Source of the DNA: Microcaldota archaeon
GTDB lineage: Archaea; Micrarchaeota; Micrarchaeia; Micrarchaeales; CABMGC01
Direction of reading: 5' to 3'
Length of the DNA: 48,039 bases
Assembly: GCA_028866835.1 (NCBI GenBank)
Contig: JAGWHJ010000009.1
Coordinates: forward strand, 1 to 48,039
Shown: piece after piece, positions 4,233-43,253 of the stretch
Numbering within the stretch: position 1 is the first letter of the stretch
How the letters are laid out: every line of letters starts with the position of its first letter
Program-made: the position numbers and the translations under genes
The notes under the pieces: model-generated
What the model saw: the letters and a program-made list of their open reading frames with translations, nothing else
What the model was told of the DNA's origin: nothing
Database searches by the model: none

Positions 4233-5198
4233 ATGCGCATCATAGGCATTGAGAGCAGCGCCCACACGCTAGGCATCGGCATCGTCAGCTCCGGGAAGGT
4301 ACTTGCGAACAAGAAACTCATGTATGACGTGGGCACCACGGGAATGATACCCAACAAGGTTGCCGAGTTCCACATAGGAAACATCAGCACCGTGATAAAA
4401 GCTGCAGTGGAGGGCGCAGGAATACGTATAACCGACATAGATGGCGTCGGGTACACGCGAGGCCCTGGCCTTGGCCCATGCCTAAGCGTGGGGCAGCTTG
4501 CCGCGAAGACGATTGCCGCAACCATTGGCGTGCCAATAGCCCCAGTGAACCACGGAATAGGCCACATAGAGATTGCAAAGGCATTCTCTCACACGAAAGA
4601 CCCTCTTGTAATATACGTTAGCGGAGGCAACTCACAGATACTCAAGCGCCATGGTAGGCGCTATCGAGTGCTCGGAGAGACATTCGACATAGGCATAGGC
4701 AACATGTTCGATTCCTTCGCAAGGAAACTGAAGCTCAGCCCGGCATGGGGCTCCACAGTGGAGAAGAAGGCGAAGGGCGGCAGGTACATGGCGATGCCAT
4801 TCACTGTGAAGGGCATGGATTTCTCTTTTACGGGGCTTCAGACCCACGCGGCAAAGCTCGCGGGCAAGGCAAGCGAAAATGATGTCTGCTTCTCGCTGAG
4901 GGAGACGGCATTCGCAATGGTCTGCGAGGCGGCTGAGAGGGCAATCCTGCTTACGAACAGCAGGGAGCTGATAGTGTGCGGCGGAGTTGCACAGAGCGCA
5001 CGGTTGCAGGAAATGCTGCACGATGTTGCAAGGGAGCACAGAGTTAGATTTGGATTTGCCCCAAACGAATACAACGCAGACAACGGCGCAATGATAGCCT
5101 ACGTTGCGGAGAGGATGCTGCAGAACGGCGCAGACACTCCTCTCAACGAATGCGACATAGAGCAGCGGTACCGGCTCGAGAATGTCGTAGTATATTGA
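4233..5198 (+). CDS. kae1: tRNA N6-threonylcarbamoyladenosine synthase subunit Kae1 (KEOPS)
   Basis: An ASKHA-fold ATPase of 321 residues, the catalytic subunit of KEOPS. It transfers the threonylcarbamoyl group from TC-AMP to A37 of ANN-decoding tRNAs. MRIIGIESSAHTLGIGI is the phosphate-1 motif, NHGIGHIE holds the HxxxH iron ligands, YVSGGNSQ is the phosphate-2 loop, and VVCGGVAQSARL-type sequence (here IVCGGVAQSARL) is the adenosine motif. The stop codon overlaps the bud32 start as TGATG. Many archaea fuse the two proteins; here they are separate but coupled. Sua5, which makes TC-AMP, is also in this window. Confidence 0.96.
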   Translation: MRIIGIESSAHTLGIGIVSSGKVLANKKLMYDVGTTGMIPNKVAEFHIGNISTVIKAAVEGAGIRITDIDGVGYTRGPGLGPCLSVGQLAAKTIAATIGVPIAPVNHGIGHIEIAKAFSHTKDPLVIYVSGGNSQILKRHGRRYRVLGETFDIGIGNMFDSFARKLKLSPAWGSTVEKKAKGGRYMAMPFTVKGMDFSFTGLQTHAAKLAGKASENDVCFSLRETAFAMVCEAAERAILLTNSRELIVCGGVAQSARLQEMLHDVAREHRVRFGFAPNEYNADNGAMIAYVAERMLQNGADTPLNECDIEQRYRLENVVVY

Positions 5199-5794
5199 TG
5201 ATCAACATGAAACCCATCCATAAAGGGGCAGAAGCGGACATCTTTCTCGAAAAGGCATTTGGCAGAACCCTCGCGGTGAAGGCGCGCAACCCCAAAAGGT
5301 ATCGCGTCGAATCGCTTGACAGGTCATTAAGGAAGACACGGACAAAGCGCGAGGCAAAGGCAATGTACCTTGCTAGCAGGGCCGGCATAAACGTCCCGGC
5401 CCTATATGCAATTGGCAGGTTCAGCATGTGCATGGAATGGATAGAAGGCAAGCTGATGAAGGACTCAAGGCAAAAGCAAAGTGTCTATGTCGACCTTGGC
5501 GAACAGCTTGGGCTGCTTCACAAGGCAGGGATAGCGCATGGGGATTTCACCACTGCCAATGTCCTGATAAAAGAAGGCAAGCCGTACCTGATCGATTTCG
5601 GCCTCTCCGAAATAACGACCAGCATCGAGGAGAAAGCGATCGATCTTATTCTCATGAAACGCTCGATATCCAAAAGAGACTTCTCTGCAATGACCGGCTC
5701 CTACGTCAAGGCCTATCCTGATGCTCGCAAGGTGCTGGATAGGCTCAGCGAGATAGAGGAGCGCGGCAGGTACAAGACAAGAACGCTCGGATGA
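5198..5794 (+). CDS. bud32: KEOPS kinase/ATPase Bud32
   Basis: The ORF track extends to 5150 inside kae1. I choose the ATG at 5198 because it overlaps the kae1 stop (TGATG) and gives MINMKPIHKGAEADIFLEKA, the expected Bud32 N-terminus, for 198 residues. It is a minimal RIO-like kinase: KARNPKRYR carries the ATP-binding Lys region, HGDFTTANVLI is the catalytic loop and LIDFGLSE the DFG segment. Within KEOPS it works as an ATPase that supports Kae1. The basic C-terminal tail RGRYKTRTLG is typical. It ends directly against the convergent ahcY gene. Confidence 0.95.
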   Translation: MINMKPIHKGAEADIFLEKAFGRTLAVKARNPKRYRVESLDRSLRKTRTKREAKAMYLASRAGINVPALYAIGRFSMCMEWIEGKLMKDSRQKQSVYVDLGEQLGLLHKAGIAHGDFTTANVLIKEGKPYLIDFGLSEITTSIEEKAIDLILMKRSISKRDFSAMTGSYVKAYPDARKVLDRLSEIEERGRYKTRTLG

Positions 5795-14125: not shown

Positions 14126-14170
14126 GGAAGCGAGAGTTAATAAACAAATTAGTACGTATAGGATAAACGC

Positions 14171-14262
14171 GGGCTCGTAGCTCAGCCTGGTCAGAGCGGC
14201 GGTCTTATAATATTTCTATAGAAGAGAGCCGTAGGTCAGGAGTTCAAATCTCCTCGGGCCCA
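14171..14262 (+). tRNA. tRNA-Ile with UAU anticodon, intron-containing
   Basis: The whole cloverleaf can be drawn. Acceptor GGGCTCG pairs with CGGGCCC, the D-stem is GCTC/GAGC, T-stem AGGAG/CTCCT encloses TTCAAAT, and the variable loop is AGGTC. The anticodon stem GCGGT/GCCGT holds two G-U pairs and encloses the loop CTTATAA once a 17-base insert is removed. That places TAT at positions 34-36 and A at 37. The acceptor, D-arm and CU-xAU-AA loop match archaeal tRNA-Ile. The discriminator is A and CCA is not encoded. Mature length is 75 bases. A37 is suited to the t6A modification made by Kae1/Bud32 and Sua5, all encoded nearby. Confidence 0.88.
14210..14226 (+). other. 17-base archaeal tRNA intron (position 37/38)
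   Basis: The insert atatttctatagaagag lies after anticodon position 37. A bulge-helix-bulge can be drawn: central helix CTT (14204-14206) with AAG (14222-14224), 5' bulge TAA across the 5' splice site, 3' bulge AGA across the 3' splice site, and an inner TAT/ATA helix with loop TTCT. The fourth central pair is an A-G mismatch, so the motif is slightly relaxed. The splicing endonuclease is expected to cut both bulges. Confidence 0.75.
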
Positions 14263-17303: not shown

Positions 17304-18359
17304 TTAATTGGCGCCTACCCTCTCGTAAGCCTTGATGGTCTGCTCGGCCGTCCTCCTCCAGGTGAACTGCCTTGCGTAAGCCATGGACTCGTCACGTTTA
17401 TGCCTGTCATATCCATTGTCCTTCAGGTCCTTTATTATCTCCGCCATCTCGTCCTCGTCATCAGCCTCGAAGCAGTACCTCCTCACCTCTTCAGGTATCT
17501 GGCCCTTTCGCTGAACTATGACGGGCACTCCGCGCGCCTGCGCTTCAAGTATCTCCATCTCGAAACCAGTGTAAAGTATCGGATGCAGGTACACATCGAA
17601 TGAATCGTAGATGTTCACGAGCTGCTCCTTCGGCGCGAAGCCCTTGAAGACCACGCGCTTGTCGTTTGCTGCCATGGTAGCCAGCTCGTTGTAGTTGCCG
17701 CCGGGCCTGCCCCATACCTCGAACCTCATGTCGGTATCCTTGAGCCTCATGAAGGCGCCCAGCGAAAAAGCCACGTTCTTCCTGTATCCGAAGGAGCCGA
17801 GCCTTCCGACAACAAACGTGTCCCCTCTGCTGTGCTCTAGGAACGGCACGTCTATGAACTCCTGGTCTATGCCTATGTTGATTAGGAAGATCCTGTCCTT
17901 GCTGTAGCCAAGCTTCACAGCCTCATTTAGTATCAACGTCGAGTCTGCTATCATGTAGTCTGATCCGAGCATCTGCCGTCTGCACATCTCGTACAGCTTC
18001 TCGCCTATGAAAGGCGGATTTCCTTCTGGCGTCGAGCGCAGAGGGTTGTCATCGTTCAATAGGAAGAATTCGTGGGATGTTGTGATGGTCTTCGCCCTTC
18101 CCCTGCGCACCGGATTGAGGAGTATCGGCGCAGGCATGTGCACTATGTCATACTTTGAGAGGTCGTTGAGCATGGAGAGCATGGTGAATGAATACTGCCT
18201 CGCCCGCAGGCCGCTCCCCCAGCCGAGCTCGACCTTGTCTATCTGATTGGCCGAGCCTACGGAGAGCATGTTCTGCCATATGTTGTATATGTACTTCTGC
18301 ACGCCCTGCCCCAGGTCCTTGTTGAAGTTGCCCTTCATGCTCAGAAGCGCTATGCGCAT
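17304..18359 (-). CDS. Glycosyltransferase family 4 protein
   Basis: A 351-residue GT-B glycosyltransferase. The N-terminal Rossmann half (MRIALLSMKGNFNKDLGQGV; VHMPAPILL) and the C-terminal half (VVGRLGSFGYRKNVAFSLGA; VDVYLHPILYTGFEMEILEA-type segment, here FDVYLHPILYTGFEMEILEA) match GT4, with the EX7E-like stretch near residue 275. It should add a sugar from an activated donor to the growing surface glycan. It lies between the ColD-like gene and the flippase in the minus-strand operon. Donor and acceptor are unknown. Confidence 0.9.
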   Translation of the reverse strand: MRIALLSMKGNFNKDLGQGVQKYIYNIWQNMLSVGSANQIDKVELGWGSGLRARQYSFTMLSMLNDLSKYDIVHMPAPILLNPVRRGRAKTITTSHEFFLLNDDNPLRSTPEGNPPFIGEKLYEMCRRQMLGSDYMIADSTLILNEAVKLGYSKDRIFLINIGIDQEFIDVPFLEHSRGDTFVVGRLGSFGYRKNVAFSLGAFMRLKDTDMRFEVWGRPGGNYNELATMAANDKRVVFKGFAPKEQLVNIYDSFDVYLHPILYTGFEMEILEAQARGVPVIVQRKGQIPEEVRRYCFEADDEDEMAEIIKDLKDNGYDRHKRDESMAYARQFTWRRTAEQTIKAYERVGAN

Positions 18360-18398
18360 TGTTTCACGTAATGAAAGAAATCGAGAAAAAATAATAAG

Positions 18399-19583
18399 CT
18401 AACTCCTGAAGAACTCGTGGAACTTTCCCACTATGTACTCTATGTCGTCGTCCGTAATGTACTGGTGGCAGCCTATGTAAAAGCCCGATTCATCAAGGCG
18501 CTTCGCAACAGGGTACTTGCCCTCTATGTTACCAAACCTCTTTATGTATACTGGCTGGTTGAGCAGGGGCAGCAAGTCCCTTGTCTCGATGCCGTTCTGC
18601 TCGAGGAAGTTGACAAGATCCTCCTTCTTGCCCGTCTTGCTCACTATTCCGAAGAGCATGTACACATTGTCCCTGTCAGGCGGGGTGTACTGGAACTGCA
18701 GGTACTCCTTGAGATCAGAGAGGCCCTTCAGGTACCTTGCGGCGATCTCCTTCCTACGCGCCACGATATGGTCCTTCCTCTTAAGCTGCGATAGTCCCAG
18801 AGCGGCCTCGAGCTCCGTGACCCTGAAGCTGTGGCCAAGCGTGACGAACCTGAACCGCTTGCCTATCACCTCCTTCAGCTTGTTGACGTCGTTTGTTGAG
18901 TCGTCATCTATGCTTATGTATATCGAATCGCGACCATGGTTCATTATGCTCCTGAGCATGACCGCAAGTTCCTTGTCAGATGTGGTGTTAATGCCTCCCA
19001 CGCCTGTTACTATGTAATGCGCTATGTAGGTCGAGAAGCAGCCTATGTCGCCGAAGGAGCCGACTGTCCGGCCCTTGTACTTGGCGAACATGGTCTCCGC
19101 AGAATCCTCTATTATGCGGAGATCGTGCTTCTTCGCTATGGCCATTATCGGGTCCATGTCTGCAGGAAGGCCAAGGAGGTGCACCGGTATTATCGCCCTT
19201 GTCCTTGGAGTTATGGCCTTCTCTATCTTCTTCGGATCGATATTGAACGTCGTCTCCTCGACATCCACGAAGACGGGCCTCATGTTGTTGTGTATGACTA
19301 TGTTCGATGTCGCTATGAAGGTCACTGCCGGCACTATAACCTCATCGCCATCGGCCCATCCATACCTCTCCTTCAAAGCGGCAAGCGCTATCTGCAGCGA
19401 GCTTGTGCCGCTGTTTGTAAAGATGCCGAACTTTGAATCGTGGAGGTGCGCAAACTCATGCTCGAATTCCTTCGACACCGGCCCGTACGATAGCCTGTTG
19501 CTGTCAAGGACCTTGTTCACCATCGCCTTGTCTTCCTTTGTCAGCTTGAGGTCGCCGACCCCTATGTACCTATCTTCCTTCAT
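18399..19583 (-). CDS. DegT/DnrJ/EryC1/StrS-family PLP enzyme, ColD-like (sugar 3-dehydratase type)
   Basis: A fold-type I PLP protein of 394 residues acting on nucleotide-linked keto sugars. The start of the family pattern is clear (NSGTSSLQIALAAL, VTFIATSNIV, IPVHLLGLPADMDPI, EDSAETMFAKYKG, GDIGCFSTYIAHYI). In aminotransferases the segment after GDIGCFS holds the Schiff-base Lys; here it reads STYIAHYIVTGVGG with His in that place. The same Lys-to-His change marks ColD and the RfbH/DdhC 3-dehydratases, which remove the C3 hydroxyl of 4-keto-6-deoxy sugars. The length fits ColD (about 390) rather than RfbH (about 437), whose iron-sulfur Cys set is not seen. A plain aminotransferase role is therefore unlikely. 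Confidence 0.82.
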   Translation of the reverse strand: MKEDRYIGVGDLKLTKEDKAMVNKVLDSNRLSYGPVSKEFEHEFAHLHDSKFGIFTNSGTSSLQIALAALKERYGWADGDEVIVPAVTFIATSNIVIHNNMRPVFVDVEETTFNIDPKKIEKAITPRTRAIIPVHLLGLPADMDPIMAIAKKHDLRIIEDSAETMFAKYKGRTVGSFGDIGCFSTYIAHYIVTGVGGINTTSDKELAVMLRSIMNHGRDSIYISIDDDSTNDVNKLKEVIGKRFRFVTLGHSFRVTELEAALGLSQLKRKDHIVARRKEIAARYLKGLSDLKEYLQFQYTPPDRDNVYMLFGIVSKTGKKEDLVNFLEQNGIETRDLLPLLNQPVYIKRFGNIEGKYPVAKRLDESGFYIGCHQYITDDDIEYIVGKFHEFFRS

Positions 19584-19589
19584 CGAAGA

Positions 19590-20546
19590 TCACATGGAGG
19601 ATGCCTTCGCATTCTTCCTGTAGTAATCAATGGTCCTCTTGAGGCCCTCCTCAAGGTTGACCTTTGGCTCCCAGCCGAGTAGCCTCTTCGCCTTCGAGTT
19701 GTCCCCTATGAGAACCATTGCATCCAATGGCCTTTTCGGCGTGGCATTCCATACTATCTCGCCCTTGAAGTTCGTGAGCTTCGCTATCATTTCAGCAGTC
19801 TCTTTAGTGGTGTATCCCTTGCCCGTACAGAGCTGTATGCTCTCACCGATAGCCTTCTTGTTGCCGAGCGCCTTTAGATAACCTTCAACGTGGTCGTCAA
19901 CGTAGAGCCAGTCGCGGATAGCGTCAGGCGCGCCCAGGAAGACCTTGTCCTGCTTGAGCATCTGGGAGATTGCGCGCTCCATGAAGAAGTGCGTGTTGTT
20001 CTTCCTTCCGTACGTGTTGTATGGCCTCAGTATGGTGTACGGGAACCTGTAAGCCAGCTGCATGTACCTCAGGTACAGGTCCGAGGCAACTTTCGACACC
20101 GCGTAAGGGCTGTTGGGGCTGAGCTGCGAATCCTCGCTGAGTTTCTTGCTCGTATCCTTCAACGTAACGCCGTACTCCTCGCTTGTACCTGCCATTATGA
20201 ACTGCTTGAAATGCGGCACGTCCCTGTAGCATGATTCAGCAAGGTTCACCGTGCCGAGGTAGTTCGCCTCGCCCACTTCAATGTAATGATCGTACGAGAA
20301 TGCCACTGCGCTGACGGCCGCAAGGTGAATTAGGTAATCGGGCTGCGAATCCCTTATTATCTTGCGCACTGCGGGGTAGTCCGTCAGGTTGGCATAGCTT
20401 ATGATGCAGTCATTGCCCTTGTCAAGCTTGTACCTTCCCGTGACGTACCTCTCTATTATCTCCACTTCGTATCCCTGCTTAAGCAACTTCGGCACAAGCT
20501 CGCTGCCTATGAATCCAGATGCACCTGTGAGTAGTACTTTTTCCAT
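19590..20546 (-). CDS. Extended SDR nucleotide-sugar dehydratase/epimerase
   Basis: A 318-residue extended short-chain dehydrogenase. LLTGASGFIGSELVPKL is the NAD(P)-binding glycine motif, MAGTSEEYG carries the catalytic Ser/Thr, and SPYAVSKVASDLYL the YxxxK pair; RDWLYVDDHVEGYLKAL is the nucleotide-sugar binding helix. It resembles GDP-mannose 4,6-dehydratase and UDP-glucose epimerase relatives, so the exact reaction is open: epimerase, dehydratase or ketoreductase. Six bases separate it from the ColD-like gene, so both probably act on one sugar. It starts at the ATG at 20546, divergent from the cytidylyltransferase operon. Confidence 0.88.
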   Translation of the reverse strand: MEKVLLTGASGFIGSELVPKLLKQGYEVEIIERYVTGRYKLDKGNDCIISYANLTDYPAVRKIIRDSQPDYLIHLAAVSAVAFSYDHYIEVGEANYLGTVNLAESCYRDVPHFKQFIMAGTSEEYGVTLKDTSKKLSEDSQLSPNSPYAVSKVASDLYLRYMQLAYRFPYTILRPYNTYGRKNNTHFFMERAISQMLKQDKVFLGAPDAIRDWLYVDDHVEGYLKALGNKKAIGESIQLCTGKGYTTKETAEMIAKLTNFKGEIVWNATPKRPLDAMVLIGDNSKAKRLLGWEPKVNLEEGLKRTIDYYRKNAKASSM

Positions 20547-20576
20547 AGAAATCGCTTTTTAATATACATTCACAAG

Positions 20577-20585
20577 TATTTAAAG
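20577..20585 (+). promoter_or_regulatory. TATA box for the CDP-sugar operon
   Basis: Tatttaaag lies in the 58-base divergent gap, about 20-28 bases before ATG 20605 and 41-49 before ATG 20626. A leaderless transcript would favour the upstream ATG. The gap must also serve the divergent SDR gene, so the two halves of the cassette may be co-regulated. Confidence 0.55.
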
Positions 20586-20604
20586 CATTTCCTGACGTAT
20601 ATTA

Positions 20605-21399
20605 ATGCATGCCACGACTGATTATATGAAGGTAGTAATACTTGCGGGAGGCTATGGGACGCGTCTCAGCGAAGAGACGGCCAATATACCAAAGCCGCTT
20701 GTTGAGATAGCGGGCAAGCCATTGATATGGTACATACTCAAGGCATACGCGTCGCAGGGGTTCAACGATTTCATAATCGCATGCGGCTACAAGGGCGACA
20801 AGCTCAAGAACTACTTCATGAGCCTTGCACACTCGTCAAATGATTTCACCATCGACGTTTCGAAGAACAGGACCGAGGTGCTGAACAGCAAGGTCCCTGA
20901 CTGGAAGGTCACGCTCATAGACACCGGCCTCAACACGATGACCGGAGGCAGGATAAAGCGCCTCAAGAAGTACATAGACGGCGACACCTTCATGCTCACT
21001 TACGGCGACGGCGTATCGGACGTGGACCTAAAGGCGCTGCTCAGGTTCCACAAGGCCCATGGCAGGAAGGCGACCCTCACTGCGGTGAGGATGCCAAGGT
21101 TCGGCATACTCAACATAGAAGGCAAGGGCAAGGTCACGTCCTTTCAGGAAAAGCGCCTGGACCAGAGCCCCTTCATCAACGGCGGCTTCATGGTCCTCTC
21201 AAAGAGCGTGATCGACTACATAGATGACGATAAGACCTCATTCGAGACCTACCCCCTCCAGAAGCTCGCAGAGGAGGGCGAACTGTACGCCTTCAAGCAT
21301 GAGGGTTTCTGGAAGGCGGTCGACAACATCAGGGACAAGCAGGAGCTTGAGAAGATCATGGAGAGCGACGATCCAAGGGTCAAGCTATGGAAAGATTGA
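20605..21399 (+). CDS. rfbF: Glucose-1-phosphate cytidylyltransferase
   Basis: A nucleotidyltransferase of 264 residues making CDP-glucose from CTP and glucose-1-phosphate. VILAGGYGTRLSEET is the nucleotide-binding loop, PKPLVEIAGKPLIWYILKAY the sugar-phosphate loop, MTGGRIKRLKKYI, YGDGVSDVD (metal Asp) and FQEKRLDQSPFINGGF follow, all in the order of RfbF/DdhA/AscA. The ending (LWKD) matches as well. This family is specific for CTP, so the cassette uses CDP sugars. The start may be ATG 20605 or ATG 20626 (MKVVILAGG), seven codons later; homologues begin like the shorter form. It overlaps the next gene by 13 bases. Confidence 0.94.
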   Translation: MHATTDYMKVVILAGGYGTRLSEETANIPKPLVEIAGKPLIWYILKAYASQGFNDFIIACGYKGDKLKNYFMSLAHSSNDFTIDVSKNRTEVLNSKVPDWKVTLIDTGLNTMTGGRIKRLKKYIDGDTFMLTYGDGVSDVDLKALLRFHKAHGRKATLTAVRMPRFGILNIEGKGKVTSFQEKRLDQSPFINGGFMVLSKSVIDYIDDDKTSFETYPLQKLAEEGELYAFKHEGFWKAVDNIRDKQELEKIMESDDPRVKLWKD

Positions 21400-22331
21400 G
21401 GATAGCAATAACTGGGGCATCCGGGTTTGTAGGCGCTAATCTCGTAAGGCATTTCTCCAAGGACAATGAGGTCTTTGCCTTGAGCAGGAACGTCTCCAAC
21501 TGGAGACTGCCCCCTAACATCAATGCGCTGAAAATCGACATAAGCGACCGCAGCAGCGTGGGCAAAGCGATAGCAGAGGCGCGCCCCGACGTGGTGCTGC
21601 ACTGCGCGGTTTATGGAGGGTACCACTTCGAGGACGACCCCCAAAAAACTATATCAACGAACATATTGGGAGCGCTTAATGTCATAGACGCCTGCAAGGA
21701 GCGATCCACTGTAATTATCAATACCGGCAGCAGCTCGGAGTACGGCATCAAGAGCGCGCCGATGAAGGAAACCGACAGCACAGAGCCTAACACCAATTAC
21801 GCGATGTCAAAGGCGCTAATCACCAACCTGCTGCATTCCGGCTACACGCGCGCGATAACACTAAGGCTCTTCTCGGTTTACGGCTATTACGAGGAGAAGC
21901 ACAGGCTGATACCCCACCTTCTGTACTCCGCAATAAAAGGCGAGACCGCGACGCTTTCAAGCAAGAATAACGTTAGGGACTTTGTGTTCATAGATGACGT
22001 TGCACACGCCTACGAGCTGGCGGTAAAAAAATTCGAGAAACTTGACAACGGAACCGTCTTCAATGTGGGCTCGGGGCGACAGACAAAGATAGCGGAGGTA
22101 GTAAAAAACCTTGATGTTAAAGTAAAATGGGCCTCTGGAACAAGGCAGAAGGAGCCTCCTCGCGTCTGGAGGGCGGACATCTCCAAAATAAAGAAGGAAC
22201 TCGGCTGGGAGCCCCAGAATTCGCTGAGGCAGGGCCTAGAAAAGACAGAGACGTGGATGAGAAGGAACATAATCTACTACGAAAATGATGAAAATGACAA
22301 GCTTGCAAGAACTAAAGGCAATAGGAACTGA
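21387..22331 (+). CDS. SDR-family NAD-dependent epimerase/reductase (RfbJ-like)
   Basis: An extended SDR of 314 residues. IAITGASGFVGANLVRHFSK is the cofactor loop, INTGSSSEYGIKSAPMKE carries the catalytic Ser, and NTNYAMSKALI the YxxxK pair; RDFVFIDDVAHAYELAV and ELGWEPQNSLRQGLEKT are the usual C-terminal landmarks. The brevity and neighbours suggest a CDP-sugar 4-ketoreductase or epimerase comparable to abequose/paratose synthases, but that is inferred. It overlaps the cytidylyltransferase gene by 13 bases and the transketolase N-subunit gene by about 40, so translation is probably coupled. Confidence 0.85.
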   Translation: MERLRIAITGASGFVGANLVRHFSKDNEVFALSRNVSNWRLPPNINALKIDISDRSSVGKAIAEARPDVVLHCAVYGGYHFEDDPQKTISTNILGALNVIDACKERSTVIINTGSSSEYGIKSAPMKETDSTEPNTNYAMSKALITNLLHSGYTRAITLRLFSVYGYYEEKHRLIPHLLYSAIKGETATLSSKNNVRDFVFIDDVAHAYELAVKKFEKLDNGTVFNVGSGRQTKIAEVVKNLDVKVKWASGTRQKEPPRVWRADISKIKKELGWEPQNSLRQGLEKTETWMRRNIIYYENDENDKLARTKGNRN

Positions 22332-23061
22332 GCTCAGGAAGGAACTTGTAGTGAAGCACTCAGAGGCAAAGATGGCACACATAGGCTCGGACCTTTCCTG
22401 CCTCGACATAATGATAACATTGTACTTCAGGGTCCTTGGCAAGGATGACCACTTCATCCTGAGCAAGGGGCACGCCGCGCTGGCCCTGTATGCCGTCCTT
22501 CACAAGAAGGGCATCATCACCGACCAGGTATACGGCACACTGGGAAAGAACGGATCAATGCTTGGCGAGCACCCGATCTACGGGATAAAAGGAATAGAGG
22601 CCGCGACAGGCTCATTGGGTCATGGCCTGTCAATAGGCGCCGGCATAGCGCTTGCAAAGAAGCTTGATGGAAGCAAGGGCACGGTGTATGTACTGCTGAG
22701 CGATGGCGAGTGCCAGGAGGGAAGCACGCTGGAGGCGATGAACTTCGCTGGCCTGCACAAGCTCGGCAACCTTGTCGCGATTGTGGACAGCAACAAGTTC
22801 CAGGCATACGATAGGACGCTAATACCCGACAGCCAGGTCCAGAAGGAATTCGATACCGCAGGCTGGACCACAAAGAGGATACCCGGCCATGATTTCATAG
22901 AGCTCGAATCCAATCTCAGGAAAACGTCTGCCGCGCCTACGCTCTACATCGCAGACACCGTGCTGGGCAAGGGCGTCTCCGACATGGAGGACAAGCTGGA
23001 ATGGCATTACAAGTCGCCTACAAAGGAACAGGTTGACGAGTTCGTCAAGAAAATAAAATAG
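22285..23061 (+). CDS. Transketolase-like protein, N-terminal (ThDP pyrimidine-site partner) subunit
   Basis: A 258-residue homologue of the N-terminal transketolase domain. AKMAHIGSDLSCLDIM and LSKGHAALALYAVL carry the conserved His, TGSLGHGLSIGAGIALA the cofactor-site His, and LSDGECQEGSTLEAMNFAGL followed by VAIVDSNKFQ is the Mg-diphosphate motif. It needs the C-terminal subunit encoded next. Archaea often split transketolase this way for pentose metabolism; here the pair is embedded in a CDP-sugar operon, which argues for transfer of a two-carbon ketol unit onto a nucleotide keto sugar. The start could be ATG 22285 or ATG 22294; both overlap the upstream SDR. Confidence 0.92.
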   Translation: MMKMTSLQELKAIGTELRKELVVKHSEAKMAHIGSDLSCLDIMITLYFRVLGKDDHFILSKGHAALALYAVLHKKGIITDQVYGTLGKNGSMLGEHPIYGIKGIEAATGSLGHGLSIGAGIALAKKLDGSKGTVYVLLSDGECQEGSTLEAMNFAGLHKLGNLVAIVDSNKFQAYDRTLIPDSQVQKEFDTAGWTTKRIPGHDFIELESNLRKTSAAPTLYIADTVLGKGVSDMEDKLEWHYKSPTKEQVDEFVKKIK

Positions 23062-23068
23062 TGTTTGA

Positions 23069-23992
23069 ATGAGGAATACTTTCTCCAGGGAGCTGCTCAA
23101 GATAATAGCCGAGGAGCAGGGCAGGAACGAATCAAGGACGTGGCTGATGTCGGGCGATCTCGGTTTTTCTGCCTTCGAAGCCATACGGGAGACCGGAAGG
23201 TTCATCAACGCAGGCATATCCGAACAGAACATGATCGGCGTTGCGTCCGGAATGGCGAAGGAAGGCAAGAACGTCTTCGTGTACTCTATAATCCCGTTCC
23301 TGTTGTACCGCACATTCGAGCAGATAAGGAATGACGTGTGCTATCCGAACCTGCCGGTAAGGCTTGTCGGCACAGGCGCGGGCCTTTCGTATTCGGACGC
23401 CGGGGCGACTCACCATCCACTGGAGGATCTGAAGGTCGCGGATTCGCTGCCCAGCATGACGGTACTCAGCCCATCCGACCCCAAGGAGGTCGAGGCATTC
23501 ATGAGACTGCTCAAGGGCGTCAAGGGCCCAATTTACCTAAGGCTCGCAAGGAACGGCGATCCCGTCCTGCATGACAGGCACGGTTCGATGGCGATAGGAA
23601 AGGCGCTCAGGCTCGTGAAGGGCAGTAAGGTACTTATAGTCTCTACAGGCATAGTAACAAAGACTGCACTCGAAGTCGCAGGTATGCTTAATAGCGAGGA
23701 TGACGGCATCGCGGAGGTCATCGAGATCCACACCTTCAAGCCATTCGACAGCGAGGCTGTAAGGAGCGCTGCAAAGGGGAAGGATATCGTTGCCACAATA
23801 GAGGACAATACCGGCGCGCTCGAAAATAAAGTCGCCGTTTCAATAGCCGGGCTTCAGGAGCAGAAATTCATCTCGTTCAAGCTGCCTGACCAGTTCACGC
23901 ACATCTCCGGCACCAAGGAGTACTTGTTCGAGGCGTACGGCATGGGGCCTCGAGACGTTTTCAATAGGATAAAGGGATTGTTGGATGAATAA
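23069..23992 (+). CDS. Transketolase-like protein, C-terminal subunit
   Basis: A 307-residue protein with the transketolase Pyr and C-terminal domains. FINAGISEQNMIGVASGMAK holds the catalytic Glu (ISEQ) that activates thiamine diphosphate; GATHHPLEDLKVADSL and IYLRLARNGDPV are the segments that in transketolase bind donor phosphate. VLIVSTGIVTKTALEVAGML begins the C-terminal domain. The active-site set looks intact, so a working ThDP enzyme is expected. Seven bases separate it from the N-subunit gene and it overlaps the CDP-glucose dehydratase gene by eight bases, so all three should be made together. Confidence 0.92.
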   Translation: MRNTFSRELLKIIAEEQGRNESRTWLMSGDLGFSAFEAIRETGRFINAGISEQNMIGVASGMAKEGKNVFVYSIIPFLLYRTFEQIRNDVCYPNLPVRLVGTGAGLSYSDAGATHHPLEDLKVADSLPSMTVLSPSDPKEVEAFMRLLKGVKGPIYLRLARNGDPVLHDRHGSMAIGKALRLVKGSKVLIVSTGIVTKTALEVAGMLNSEDDGIAEVIEIHTFKPFDSEAVRSAAKGKDIVATIEDNTGALENKVAVSIAGLQEQKFISFKLPDQFTHISGTKEYLFEAYGMGPRDVFNRIKGLLDE

Positions 23993-25031
23993 TTTCTTCA
24001 GGAACAAAACCGTCTTGGTAACCGGGCACACTGGCTTTGTTGGGTCGTGGCTGGCGTTATGGCTCAAGGAATCTAAAGCAGATGTCGTGGGACTATCGCT
24101 GAATCCTCCGTCAAACCCGTACCACTACAAGATACTGGGCCTCAGCAGAGACATAACCGATATAAAAGGCGACATAAGAAAGAGCGCAACTGTAAACCGT
24201 GTGCTCAGGGAGCGCAAGCCAGACATAGTCATGCATCTTGCTGCGCAGCCGATACTGCTTGATTCGTATGGAAATCCCGCTGAAACCTACCTGACAAACG
24301 TGATTGGTACTCTCAATGTGCTTGAGGCAAGCCGCAAAGCTGGCAGCGTAAGGGCATTTTTGAACGTCACAACAGACAAGGTGTATGAAAACATAGGCAC
24401 AAAATCTAGGTACAAGGAAACGGACAAACTTGGCGGCTCGGATCCATACAGTTCAAGCAAGGCATGCTCGGAAATCCTCACACAGAGCTACCGGGACAGC
24501 TTCATGTCGGGCGCCGGCATTGCCACTGCAAGGGCAGGTAACATACTCGGCGGAGGCGACTGGGGCGCGCACAGGCTTGTGCCTGGCCTCGTCTGGTCCC
24601 ATATCAGTGGCAAGCCACTGCTGATAAGGCATCCTGACGCAATAAGGCCATGGTCTCACGTACTTGATATCCTCAATGGATATCTCACGCTGACAGAGAA
24701 GCTCTACAAAAACCCTAAGAGGTACTCCGGCCCATGGAACTTTGCGTCAGCTGACGTCAAGCTGGTAAAGGATCTGATCTTGGAGTTCTCAAAATATTGG
24801 CGCATAAAGTACAGGCTCGGGGCTGGAAAGGGCCTCCACGAGGAAAAGCTGCTTCTTCTCGACTCGACAAAGGCAAAAGAGGGACTTGGCTGGAAACCTA
24901 TCAATTCATTTTCACGGACCGTAAGGGACACCGCATCGTGGTATGACCACTTCTACGGTAAAAACGGCGGCACGGGCCCTGATTATTCCATAATGCAGTT
25001 GCGTCATTTCGAAAGAAGATTGCATGGATAA
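23985..25031 (+). CDS. rfbG: CDP-glucose 4,6-dehydratase
   Basis: A 348-residue extended SDR that converts CDP-glucose to CDP-4-keto-6-deoxyglucose. VLVTGHTGFVGSWLALWLKE is the NAD loop; NVTTDKVYEN is the hallmark of the RfbG/DdhB group, carrying the catalytic Thr-Asp-Lys; DPYSSSKACSEI holds the YxxxK pair; RPWSHVLDILNGYLTL follows. It is the enzyme expected to act after the cytidylyltransferase at 20605. Overlaps of eight bases on both sides (transketolase C-subunit before, glycosyltransferase after) mark it as part of one coupled operon. Confidence 0.93.
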   Translation: MNNFFRNKTVLVTGHTGFVGSWLALWLKESKADVVGLSLNPPSNPYHYKILGLSRDITDIKGDIRKSATVNRVLRERKPDIVMHLAAQPILLDSYGNPAETYLTNVIGTLNVLEASRKAGSVRAFLNVTTDKVYENIGTKSRYKETDKLGGSDPYSSSKACSEILTQSYRDSFMSGAGIATARAGNILGGGDWGAHRLVPGLVWSHISGKPLLIRHPDAIRPWSHVLDILNGYLTLTEKLYKNPKRYSGPWNFASADVKLVKDLILEFSKYWRIKYRLGAGKGLHEEKLLLLDSTKAKEGLGWKPINSFSRTVRDTASWYDHFYGKNGGTGPDYSIMQLRHFERRLHG

Positions 25032-25998
25032 GCTCGGCATCTATATACCAACTTACAACAGGAAGAGGGATCTCGAGCTTTGCATGCGTAGCTTCATACC
25101 ACAGCTCAAGCGCTACGGCTTCCCAATCTATGTCTCTGACAACAACTCCACTGACGGAACCGAAAAAGTCGTCAACAAGCTGAAGAGGAGCTACAGCAAG
25201 ATCTTCTACAAGAAAAACGACACGGGCCTTGGGCCGACATACGCCTCGAACCTTGTCAGCGTAATAAACATGGGAAAGACCGAGTTCGCGTGGCTCTTCG
25301 GTGACGACGATGTGATAAAGGCCGGTGCGATAGATAGGATAGTAACGAACCTTCCGGGGCACGACTATCTGCAGATAAACACGGAAATATGGAACCGCGA
25401 TTTCTCGAAGAAATTCCAGGGAAGAAAGATCCAGGCAAAGAGGAACATTGACTACGCCCCCGGTGATCATGACGATGTCCTTGCAAACGCATCTTACGGT
25501 TATGCGGGTTTCATGGGCGAAATAATAACGCGTACATCATATCTTAAAAACGGATTAAAGAAATTGAAGGGACCAGATCTTGCAGCAAGGGAGTTTCTCC
25601 ACACAACCCTTTTCTTCAATTCCATCATAGGCAGGGAGGGGAGGCTTATCGCGGAGCCTCTGGTGAAATACCGCACTACGCTGAGATTTGGCGGCAAGGA
25701 GATGTACACCTGGCTTGTAAGCTTCCCAAAGACGCTTGAAGAGCTAGGAAACTCCTATTCCGAAGAGACCCTGCGTTCCGTAGGAAGCCTTCCAGTGTAC
25801 AGCCTTATAGGCATAACTGCAATTAACAGGCTTCAAAACCCGGGCAATGCAAGGGCTTACATGAAGTATGTAAGGGAAGACAGAATGCTTGATTCAAGCA
25901 CCAAGGCCATACTGCTTACGATACTCACCGTGCCAAAGCCAATCGTCAGAGCCGTTATATATCCAACCGTAAAGATCAATGCATTTGAGATACTGTGA
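25024..25998 (+). CDS. Glycosyltransferase family 2 protein (abequosyltransferase-like)
   Basis: A GT-A glycosyltransferase of 324 residues. LGIYIPTYNRKRDLELCMRS is the GT2 opening, VSDNNSTDGTEKVVNKL binds the nucleotide, and FAWLFGDDDVIKAGAIDRIV holds the DxD-type metal site. The GDDD form is common among transferases of dideoxyhexoses such as abequose, which fits its place as the last gene of the CDP-sugar operon. It probably moves the finished sugar onto the glycan or lipid carrier. It overlaps the CDP-glucose dehydratase gene by eight bases. The acceptor is unknown. Confidence 0.88.
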   Translation: MDKLGIYIPTYNRKRDLELCMRSFIPQLKRYGFPIYVSDNNSTDGTEKVVNKLKRSYSKIFYKKNDTGLGPTYASNLVSVINMGKTEFAWLFGDDDVIKAGAIDRIVTNLPGHDYLQINTEIWNRDFSKKFQGRKIQAKRNIDYAPGDHDDVLANASYGYAGFMGEIITRTSYLKNGLKKLKGPDLAAREFLHTTLFFNSIIGREGRLIAEPLVKYRTTLRFGGKEMYTWLVSFPKTLEELGNSYSEETLRSVGSLPVYSLIGITAINRLQNPGNARAYMKYVREDRMLDSSTKAILLTILTVPKPIVRAVIYPTVKINAFEIL

Positions 25999-41725: not shown

Positions 41726-42199
41726 TTACCCGTTCCTAAGCTTTATTATGCAGCGCTTTACCTTTTTGTTGCCCTTCCCGTAATAGAAATGGGCGTCGAA
41801 CTTCCTTCCGTCAAGCATCATCGGCATCCATACCTTGTCGTCATCCCACATCTTTTCGTACGGCAGACCGTTTGTCTTGAACCACATCACCTTGCCTTCT
41901 TCGGTGGACCTAAGCTTACCGCTGAACTTCCTCGTTGAGAAAAGATAGCCTAGGACAGCAAGTTTTTTCGACCCGCCCATATGGAAACGGAGCCTGCCGT
42001 GGAAGAACGGGTCTCTCATCTCCAGTCCCGTCTCCTCAAAGACCTCCCTTATTGCGCATTGCTTGGGCGTTTCGCCAGGATCTAGCTTCCCTCCAGGGCC
42101 ATTCCACTTGCCCTTGCTTATGCCCCTGGTTGCCAGCTTCAGCACGAGTCTGTCGCCGCTGATTATGTGGCACAATGTGGCTCTAAGCACCAAGTCCAT
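41726..42199 (-). CDS. Nudix hydrolase (MutT/MTH1-like)
   Basis: A 157-residue Nudix protein with GGKLDPGETPKQCAIREVFE continuing ETGLE, a full Nudix box. The preceding KLATRGISKGKWNGPGGK and the WFKTNGLPYEKMWDDDKVWM segment closely resemble MTH1/MutT-type 8-oxo-dGTP diphosphatases, where W-x-D-D contacts the base. A nucleotide-pool sanitising role is likely but not proven. Its start overlaps the end of sua5 by 17 bases, so it is the last gene of a channel-sua5-Nudix operon. Confidence 0.9.
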   Translation of the reverse strand: MDLVLRATLCHIISGDRLVLKLATRGISKGKWNGPGGKLDPGETPKQCAIREVFEETGLEMRDPFFHGRLRFHMGGSKKLAVLGYLFSTRKFSGKLRSTEEGKVMWFKTNGLPYEKMWDDDKVWMPMMLDGRKFDAHFYYGKGNKKVKRCIIKLRNG

Positions 42200-43238
42200 C
42201 CAACCTCAACAACATTCTCAATCCTTTTGCATCTGAAAAGTATTTATTCGAGCACGCCTTCCTTATCCTGTTCATTATCGCGAGCCCGACGCCCTCTTCC
42301 TCAAAGCCCTCTATTATCGCAAAATCAAGCCCCTTTGAATCCAAAGCAATCAATGCGCTGAATAGATTGTGTGCTATCTCTTCCTTTCTGCTTGCCTTTC
42401 CAAGCCTTATGACGCTTTCTGCACATCCATTCATGATTTTGCAAGATCCATCGGATCCTATGAAAGCAAATCTCTGCTTTATGCCGTTTGTTATTTCATG
42501 CAGCTTATCGATTTTTCCGGTGAATAGGAAGAGCGGTGTGTCCGGTGAATAATGCCTGTATTTCATCCCAGGGCTTATTGCAGTAGGAGCCGTTCTCGTG
42601 CCTCTGGCTATCACAGTTATCTTGGGTCTTCTGCCAAATGCCGACGTTATCTTCTCAGCAGAGAATGCGCCAGGCCTCAACAGGGCAAATGTGCGCAGGT
42701 CTAATATGGTGGATTCTATGCCGTTCTTTGCCGGCCCTGCGTCAAGTACGATATCTACTTTGCCATCAAAATACTTCATTGCGTGCGCTGCAGTTGTAGA
42801 GGAAGGTTTTTTTGATATGTTTGCGCTCGGCGCCGCTATCGGAGTGCCGCTCGCTTTTATCAGTGCTAGGGCCACTTTATTGTCAGGCATCCTTATGGCG
42901 AGCTCCTTTCTGCCGCGAAGATCTCTTGCCTTGACCACAAAAGAGATTGGGCCGGGCCACAGTTTTCTTACTATCTTCCGATATCTCTCCGGGAATACGC
43001 CAAGCCTTGATGCCATCTCCATGTCAGAAACGTGTATCATCAATGGATTGTCGGAGGGCCTGCCCTTTACCTTGTATATCTTTTTGACCGCCTTCTCATT
43101 CAGCGCATCCGCGCCTATGCCATAGACCGTCTCTGTGGGAAATACGACCAGGCCTCCCCTCTTTATGACTTCTGCCGCAATGAGTATCCTTTTCCTTTCT
43201 GGCCTGCCTGGATTTATCTTTAGCAGTTTAGTGCGCAT
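42183..43238 (-). CDS. sua5: Threonylcarbamoyl-AMP synthase Sua5
   Basis: Makes threonylcarbamoyl-AMP from threonine, bicarbonate and ATP, the substrate used by Kae1/KEOPS for t6A37. VVFPTETVYGIGADALNEKA, IYKVKGRPSDNPLMIHVSD and GTPIAAPSANISKKPSSTTA are YrdC-domain signatures; STILDLRTFALLRPGAFS ends that domain. Residues about 240-351 are the extra Rossmann-like Sua5 C-terminal domain, joined by a linker with PGMKYRHYSP. The track's TTG 43253 is replaced by ATG 43238 (MRTKLLKINPG), leaving 351 residues. It follows the K+ channel gene by 15 bases. Confidence 0.95.
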   Translation of the reverse strand: MRTKLLKINPGRPERKRILIAAEVIKRGGLVVFPTETVYGIGADALNEKAVKKIYKVKGRPSDNPLMIHVSDMEMASRLGVFPERYRKIVRKLWPGPISFVVKARDLRGRKELAIRMPDNKVALALIKASGTPIAAPSANISKKPSSTTAAHAMKYFDGKVDIVLDAGPAKNGIESTILDLRTFALLRPGAFSAEKITSAFGRRPKITVIARGTRTAPTAISPGMKYRHYSPDTPLFLFTGKIDKLHEITNGIKQRFAFIGSDGSCKIMNGCAESVIRLGKASRKEEIAHNLFSALIALDSKGLDFAIIEGFEEEGVGLAIMNRIRKACSNKYFSDAKGLRMLLRLDGLGA

Positions 43239-43253
43239 TCGATACCACGGCAA

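Follow-up and report, generated by a model that had tools for sequence, protein, structure and literature searches.

An intron-bearing tRNA-Ile3(UAU) gene as the probable direct reader of AUA codons in Micrarchaeota without TiaS

Introduction

In the textbook view, archaea read the isoleucine codon AUA with an agmatidine-modified tRNA-Ile2, and a UAU anticodon is a curiosity of two species. The window analysed here, a stretch of 48,039 nucleotides of archaeal DNA, holds an intron-bearing tRNA gene with a UAU anticodon. This raises the question by which route the source organism reads AUA, and if this route is an isolated case or the rule among its relatives. An older survey found tRNA-Ile(UAU) in two of 167 archaeal genomes (PMC6000648), and the same two species, Nanoarchaeum equitans and Korarchaeum cryptofilum, are named in a further study (PMC8450103). 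In keeping with these older surveys, a preliminary description of the window had given the UAU anticodon as known from a few lineages only.

Results

The sole tRNA gene of the window lies at positions 14171-14262 of the forward strand, and ARAGORN and Rfam give it identical ends. With 57.4 bits against a gathering score of 29 (E-value of 6.8e-10 in the window), it belongs to the tRNA family RF00005, in agreement with ARAGORN. This program, run with no intron taken into account, returned the label tRNA-??? and an 8-base loop (tata); the exon/intron structure was worked out by hand and by script. The cloverleaf is complete, as the preliminary description had claimed: the acceptor stem is GGGCUCG/CGGGCCC (7/7 paired), the D stem GCUC/GAGC, the anticodon stem GCGGU/GCCGU (5/5, two of them G-U pairs) and the T stem AGGAG/CUCCU, and the discriminator is A73. 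The 5' exon (14171-14209, tRNA positions 1-37), for which sequence, ARAGORN, Rfam and script agree, ends with the anticodon UAU (14206-14208) and with A37 (14209), the presumed t6A site, behind which the 5' splice site follows. A 17-nt intron, AUAUUUCUAUAGAAGAG, occupies 14210-14226 according to script and predicted fold, and the 3' exon with positions 38-73 extends over 14227-14262 (sequence, ARAGORN and Rfam). Once the intron is taken out, the loop reads C32-U33-U34-A35-U36-A37-A38, and this reading frame, hence the genuine UAU anticodon, is confirmed by intronless orthologues. The TATA-like sequence TTAATAAA (14137-14144, forward strand), noticed by direct reading 27-34 nt upstream of the gene, is possibly its archaeal TATA box.

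Among 90 parsable Micrarchaeota loci, the 37/38 site is likewise interrupted by an intron in 84; the six intronless ones (L091, classed as such by inspection, L094, L098, L101, L111 and L116) all fall into f1/f2, the window's own family or order. These six read CU-UAU-AA directly, for instance GCGGT CTTATA A GCCGT in L098. The intron boundary in the window, placed just 3' of A37 in the preliminary description as well, is thus supported by the shared site in the 84 loci and by the retention of CU-UAU-AA in the other six. The same six relatives rule out a strict functional requirement for the intron. As for the splicing motif, C32-G15, U33-A14 and U34-A13 pair in the core of the window copy (3/4, with an A35.G12 mismatch), and the inner helix U2A3U4/A9U10A11 is fully paired (3/3); the description of the bulge-helix-bulge (BHB) as slightly relaxed is therefore apt. 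A core of 4/4 pairs (3-nt bulge, 4-bp helix, 3-nt bulge) is present in 66 of the 90 orthologues. The predicted fold of the window precursor with cloverleaf and BHB-like helix has -29.6 kcal/mol, compared with -30.2 kcal/mol for the minimum free energy (MFE) structure. Introns in the anticodon loop are found in eight of the 45 tRNAs of the near-complete relative G043, with L230 counted by eye. Many Ile(UAU) genes outside f1/f2, among them L038-L049 and L129-L131, appear to be multiply disrupted tRNA genes, with additional long insertions in T-arm or variable region.

The mature 75-mer is identical to the tRNA-Ile(GAU) of the same genome at 61 of 75 positions, as against 55 for tRNA-Lys(UUU) and 57 for tRNA-Arg(UCU), so that tRNA-Ile(GAU) is its nearest relative among the own-genome tRNAs compared. 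Together with A73 and A37, this kinship points to isoleucine identity. A codon count over 47 ORFs of the window bears out the earlier impression that AUA is frequent: it accounts for 738 of 1081 Ile codons (68%; 51 per thousand), where about 30% would be expected from four-fold sites, at which A makes up only 21%. AUA is consequently the preferred Ile codon in these ORFs. The window also encodes, as had been proposed, Kae1 of t6A synthesis (4233-5198, forward strand; TIGR03722, 379.8 bits), the KEOPS kinase Bud32 (5150-5794, forward strand; TIGR03724, 181.2 bits) and an L-threonylcarbamoyladenylate synthase of the Sua5/TsaC type (42183-43253, reverse strand; TIGR00057, 198.1 bits), each above its profile cut-off. 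These genes support t6A at A37 of the window tRNA, yet in a non-specific manner; t6A is a general modification, and their presence therefore says nothing special about this tRNA.

If the UAU tRNA reads AUA, the agmatidine system should be dispensable, and no trace of it was found in the source genome, a fragmented assembly of 1.09 Mb in 40 contigs (88% complete) of which the window represents contig C3. Neither TiaS domain (PF08489, PF22641) has a match there, while four archaeal controls were positive for both. Among the 31 tRNAs found in this 88% complete genome are tRNA-Ile(GAU) and a single CAU tRNA of the elongator type, L021, which has an intron; none of the 31 is a tRNA-Ile2(CAU). L021 looks like the elongator tRNA-Met counterpart of L223 from G043. 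That near-complete genome, with 45 tRNA hits, has one Ile(GAU), one Ile(UAU) and two CAU tRNAs; the latter are the initiator and the elongator tRNA-Met, and there is no third. Both absences that the preliminary description had called for were thus observed, and the window tRNA takes the place of tRNA-Ile2(CAU) and TiaS as far as its incomplete genome allows one to see.

This situation is not confined to the source organism. With a strict pattern spanning D-arm to anticodon, a UAU tRNA was recovered from 219 of 301 genomes of the phylum and from 75 of its 96 high-quality ones; a reversed-pattern control gave none among the matches listed. A looser pattern added 17 genomes with a match in which CTTATA is kept. 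About 65 genomes yielded no UAU tRNA by either pattern, 24 of them having been searched by the strict pattern only. G015, a 100% complete genome from the class of the source organism, and its genus g61 have neither a UAU tRNA (both patterns in the case of G015) nor TiaS; in genomes of this type, a split or multi-intron tRNA may be expected to read AUA. TiaS is absent from all 301 phylum genomes, whereas 49 of 94 genomes sampled from other archaea have it. In 80 of these 94 (45 TiaS-negative, 35 TiaS-positive) we searched for UAU tRNAs as well and found ten true ones, all in TiaS-negative genomes and none in the 35 TiaS-positive ones; pattern matches in G304 and G327 lie within unrelated sequence and are not tRNAs. 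The phylum name rests on named records with a related intron motif: Candidatus Micrarchaeota account for most of these, Iainarchaeum, Woesearchaeota and Altiarchaeota for some, and bacteria for none. Hence, the view that UAU is limited to a few lineages is not borne out: tRNA-Ile3(UAU) is probably the standard AUA reader across Micrarchaeota, in place of the agmatidine system, and it occurs in further archaeal phyla. The window copy is an ordinary member of this group for its clade.

Outside f1/f2, the intron begins with 17 nucleotides of the approximate consensus YGRC-N-CGYUCURRY-AYA. In most of these relatives, i6-i14 are complementary to the 3' strand of the D-arm (19-26) and i2-i4 to positions 30-32; modelled as an alternative hairpin, the former pairing would open the D-arm and loop out U34-A37. 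Internal intron helices, constraints on the BHB and common descent could instead account for this pairing as a by-product. In favour of such an origin, GRC at i2-i4 can alternatively pair inside the BHB, and RNAalifold predicts no hairpin on the mixed 64-sequence alignment, probably because this set, which includes other phyla, contains non-conforming sequences; pair counting on the named structure was used in its place. Across these 64 distinct sequences, 85.2% of cells are paired as against 82.3 +/- 0.4% after shuffling, and double changes number 23 versus 8.2 +/- 2.3. However, sliding the partner columns by one to three reduces pairing from 85% to 35-50%, and compensatory pairs occur in several families at 20:i13 (U-A/G, G-C/U, C-G) and 20a:i12 (U-A/G, C-G). 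A pattern with these columns unconstrained retrieved 53 distinct loci, a set overlapping with the 64 sequences; here 149 of 159 cells pair, whereas the maximum of 10,000 shuffles is 142. Complementarity to the own D-arm has a median p of 0.013 in the non-f1/f2 introns and is at chance (median p of about 0.35) in f1/f2 introns and in 16 other tRNA introns; the hairpin is part of the predicted MFE precursor in 21 of 28 non-f1/f2 but in 0 of 22 f1/f2 sequences. Taken as a whole, these data, whose controls are not corrected for phylogeny, make a by-product unlikely. The window copy itself, with 5/9 of the i6-i14 pairs, is at chance and lacks the hairpin present in most f3-f28 relatives. Exceptions exist in f3, f7, f9, f10, f15, f26 and f27; several of them have, by post hoc observation, a GCUCURR stretch near the intron 3' end as a potential partner of the same D-arm strand.

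A second alternative accepts the hairpin and assigns it to an RNA-guided or Cbf5-type pseudouridine synthase acting on U34/U36 instead of to a passive shield. The arrangement of hairpin, A-C/U-A and UUAUAU loop, with i15-i17 being AYA in most sequences, would fit such an enzyme, and yeast Pus1 requires the intron for pseudouridine formation at positions 34 and 36 of the same tRNA (PMC4090602, PMC11912914). This explanation is nevertheless quite improbable, as ACA is retained in some introns devoid of the hairpin (L131, L179) and no guide pocket is visible. An H/ACA guide (no pocket) and a box C/D guide (no C/D boxes) were likewise considered for the Ile(UAU) intron and rejected, surviving only as weak rivals. 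Among UAU tRNAs of other phyla, the one from G360 is intronless and those from G314 and f43 lack the D-arm pairing. In f43 (L179-L182), the intron keeps YGRC and ACA, and a possible partner of its CUCCCGC stretch is the 3' anticodon stem (GCGGGAG) in place of the D-arm.

The distribution of the hairpin can be set beside that of Elp3, an enzyme that modifies U34. A match above cut-off (TIGR01211) is present in 125 of the 301 phylum genomes, with all strong matches in f3-f28, and nearly all families other than f1/f2 possess the enzyme. In contrast, none of the 164 f1/f2 genomes, the source genome included, has anything beyond a weak radical-SAM-like match. Among the large clades of the phylum, the window's order stands alone in lacking Elp3 and in having intronless copies; it is here that the hairpin is degenerate and that some copies have lost their intron. 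Conversely, the 5' hairpin is missing from several lineages that bear Elp3 (parts of f3, f9, f10, f15, f26 and f27).

Discussion

Our data answer the question posed by the locus in favour of an intron-bearing tRNA-Ile3(UAU) that reads AUA directly as part of a phylum-wide route without tRNA-Ile2(CAU) and TiaS, and we put the probability of this reading at about 0.92. That the gene is instead a decayed or non-functional copy, with AUA read by an undetected tRNA-Ile2(CAU) and a divergent modifying enzyme, is very improbable: in an assembly of 88% completeness a missing Ile2(CAU) is no proof by itself, and the BHB core has its one A.G mismatch, but the cloverleaf is intact with 57.4 bits, orthologues with an identical anticodon and 37/38 site exist in most of the phylum, TiaS is found in 0/301 genomes, and G043 has no third CAU tRNA.

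From its sequence we infer the following course of events for the tRNA-Ile3(UAU) of the window. Positions 14171-14262 would be transcribed, together with the 17-nt intron, as pre-tRNA-Ile3(UAU), from which the archaeal splicing endonuclease would remove the intron at the relaxed BHB 3' of A37. The spliced tRNA would then acquire t6A37, be charged by IleRS, and read AUA, the commonest Ile codon here, through U34. As AUA would be read directly in this manner, neither tRNA-Ile2(CAU) nor TiaS should be needed, and the UAU route would have taken over from the agmatidine route, or come before it, in the whole of Micrarchaeota. Secondary to this and less certain, the intron of Elp3-bearing relatives may fold with the D-arm and thereby delay or change U34 modification of the precursor; in the Elp3-less order of the window, the hairpin would have decayed and the intron become dispensable.

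With the tRNA-Ile3(UAU) of N. equitans and K. cryptofilum, the Micrarchaeota share the anticodon and the loss of tRNA-Ile2(CAU); the K. cryptofilum gene likewise bears an intron and resembles its own tRNA-Ile(GAU) (PMC6000648, PMC8450103). The difference lies in a phylum-wide rule, with TiaS absent from 301 genomes, as opposed to an isolated gain. Compared with the archaeal tRNA-Ile2(CAU)/agmatidine system, which also serves AUA, the anticodon differs and TiaS is absent, so that the window tRNA is not a member of it. A whole phylum, plus members of others, that uses UAU without TiaS bears on the discrimination between AUA and AUG and on the question which of the two systems is the older one. 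It is this distribution, its complementarity with TiaS, and the correlation of the intron element with Elp3 that make the finding worth following up.

A UAU mutant of haloarchaeal tRNA-Ile reportedly reads AUG. This mutant gains cnm5U34 (Mandal, 2014, as cited in PMC7668247). The tRNA-Ile(UAU) of Schizosaccharomyces pombe and Saccharomyces cerevisiae, whose pseudouridines at 34 and 36 depend on Pus1 and the intron, gains ncm5U34 when either is missing, and its S. pombe precursor adopts a noncanonical fold (PMC11912914, PMC4090602). Our archaeal tRNAs resemble this eukaryotic case in the anticodon, the 37/38 intron, a predicted unusual folding of the precursor around the anticodon, and a structured intron retained where Elp3 exists. 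They are unlike it in their BHB splicing and in the conserved D-arm:intron pairing predicted here, and also in that the lineage of the window has a degenerate intron and no Elp3. This suggests that the archaeal tRNA-Ile(UAU) intron may control U34 modification as in yeasts, the link to Elp3 being that of one clade. A fuller model for Micrarchaeota and other DPANN archaea would have the intron:D-arm switch hold the anticodon in a loop, keep Elp3 from placing a 5-substituent on U34 or let another enzyme act first, and so keep AUA and AUG distinct, with decay of the switch upon Elp3 loss in the window's order. We advance it tentatively and with the odds somewhat against it, since the correlation of Elp3 and hairpin amounts to one clade-level event. 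The benefit of the intron need not be AUG discrimination, as AUG misreading by the intronless tRNA-Ile(UAU) was ruled out in S. cerevisiae (PMC11912914). If the model is true, the precursor switch would be the archaeal counterpart of the relation between intron, Pus1 and Elongator in yeast; the intron element, lost in an Elp3-less lineage, would provide, as has been argued for yeasts, a concrete link between a tRNA intron and U34 modification in archaea.

That an archaeal intron serves the modification of its own tRNA has a precedent in haloarchaeal tRNA-Trp, whose intron carries a box C/D guide (PMC4090602). The role inferred here is similar, but the Ile(UAU) introns show no C/D boxes, their element being a hairpin with the D-arm. 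In the elongator tRNA-Met of G043 (L223, contig C17), a 67-nt intron holds UUAUGAGUG followed by CUGA, and C34 would be the pairing partner of the fifth nucleotide 5' of CUGA. As read from these motifs, this intron may act in box C/D fashion as a guide for Cm34 in the tRNA that carries it, a modification that would then help to keep AUG and AUA apart. L021 of the source genome (contig C15, 17015-17140) has a similar, less clean stretch. The source genome also contains a tRNA-like locus of 118 nt (L029; contig C30, 61888-62005, reverse strand) with U73, an ambiguous anticodon and 40.7 bits, which may be interrupted by an intron at an unusual position. Within the window, glycosyltransferase, sugar-nucleotide and transketolase-like ORFs follow each other in a run at 17304-25998, by eye a surface-glycan cluster.
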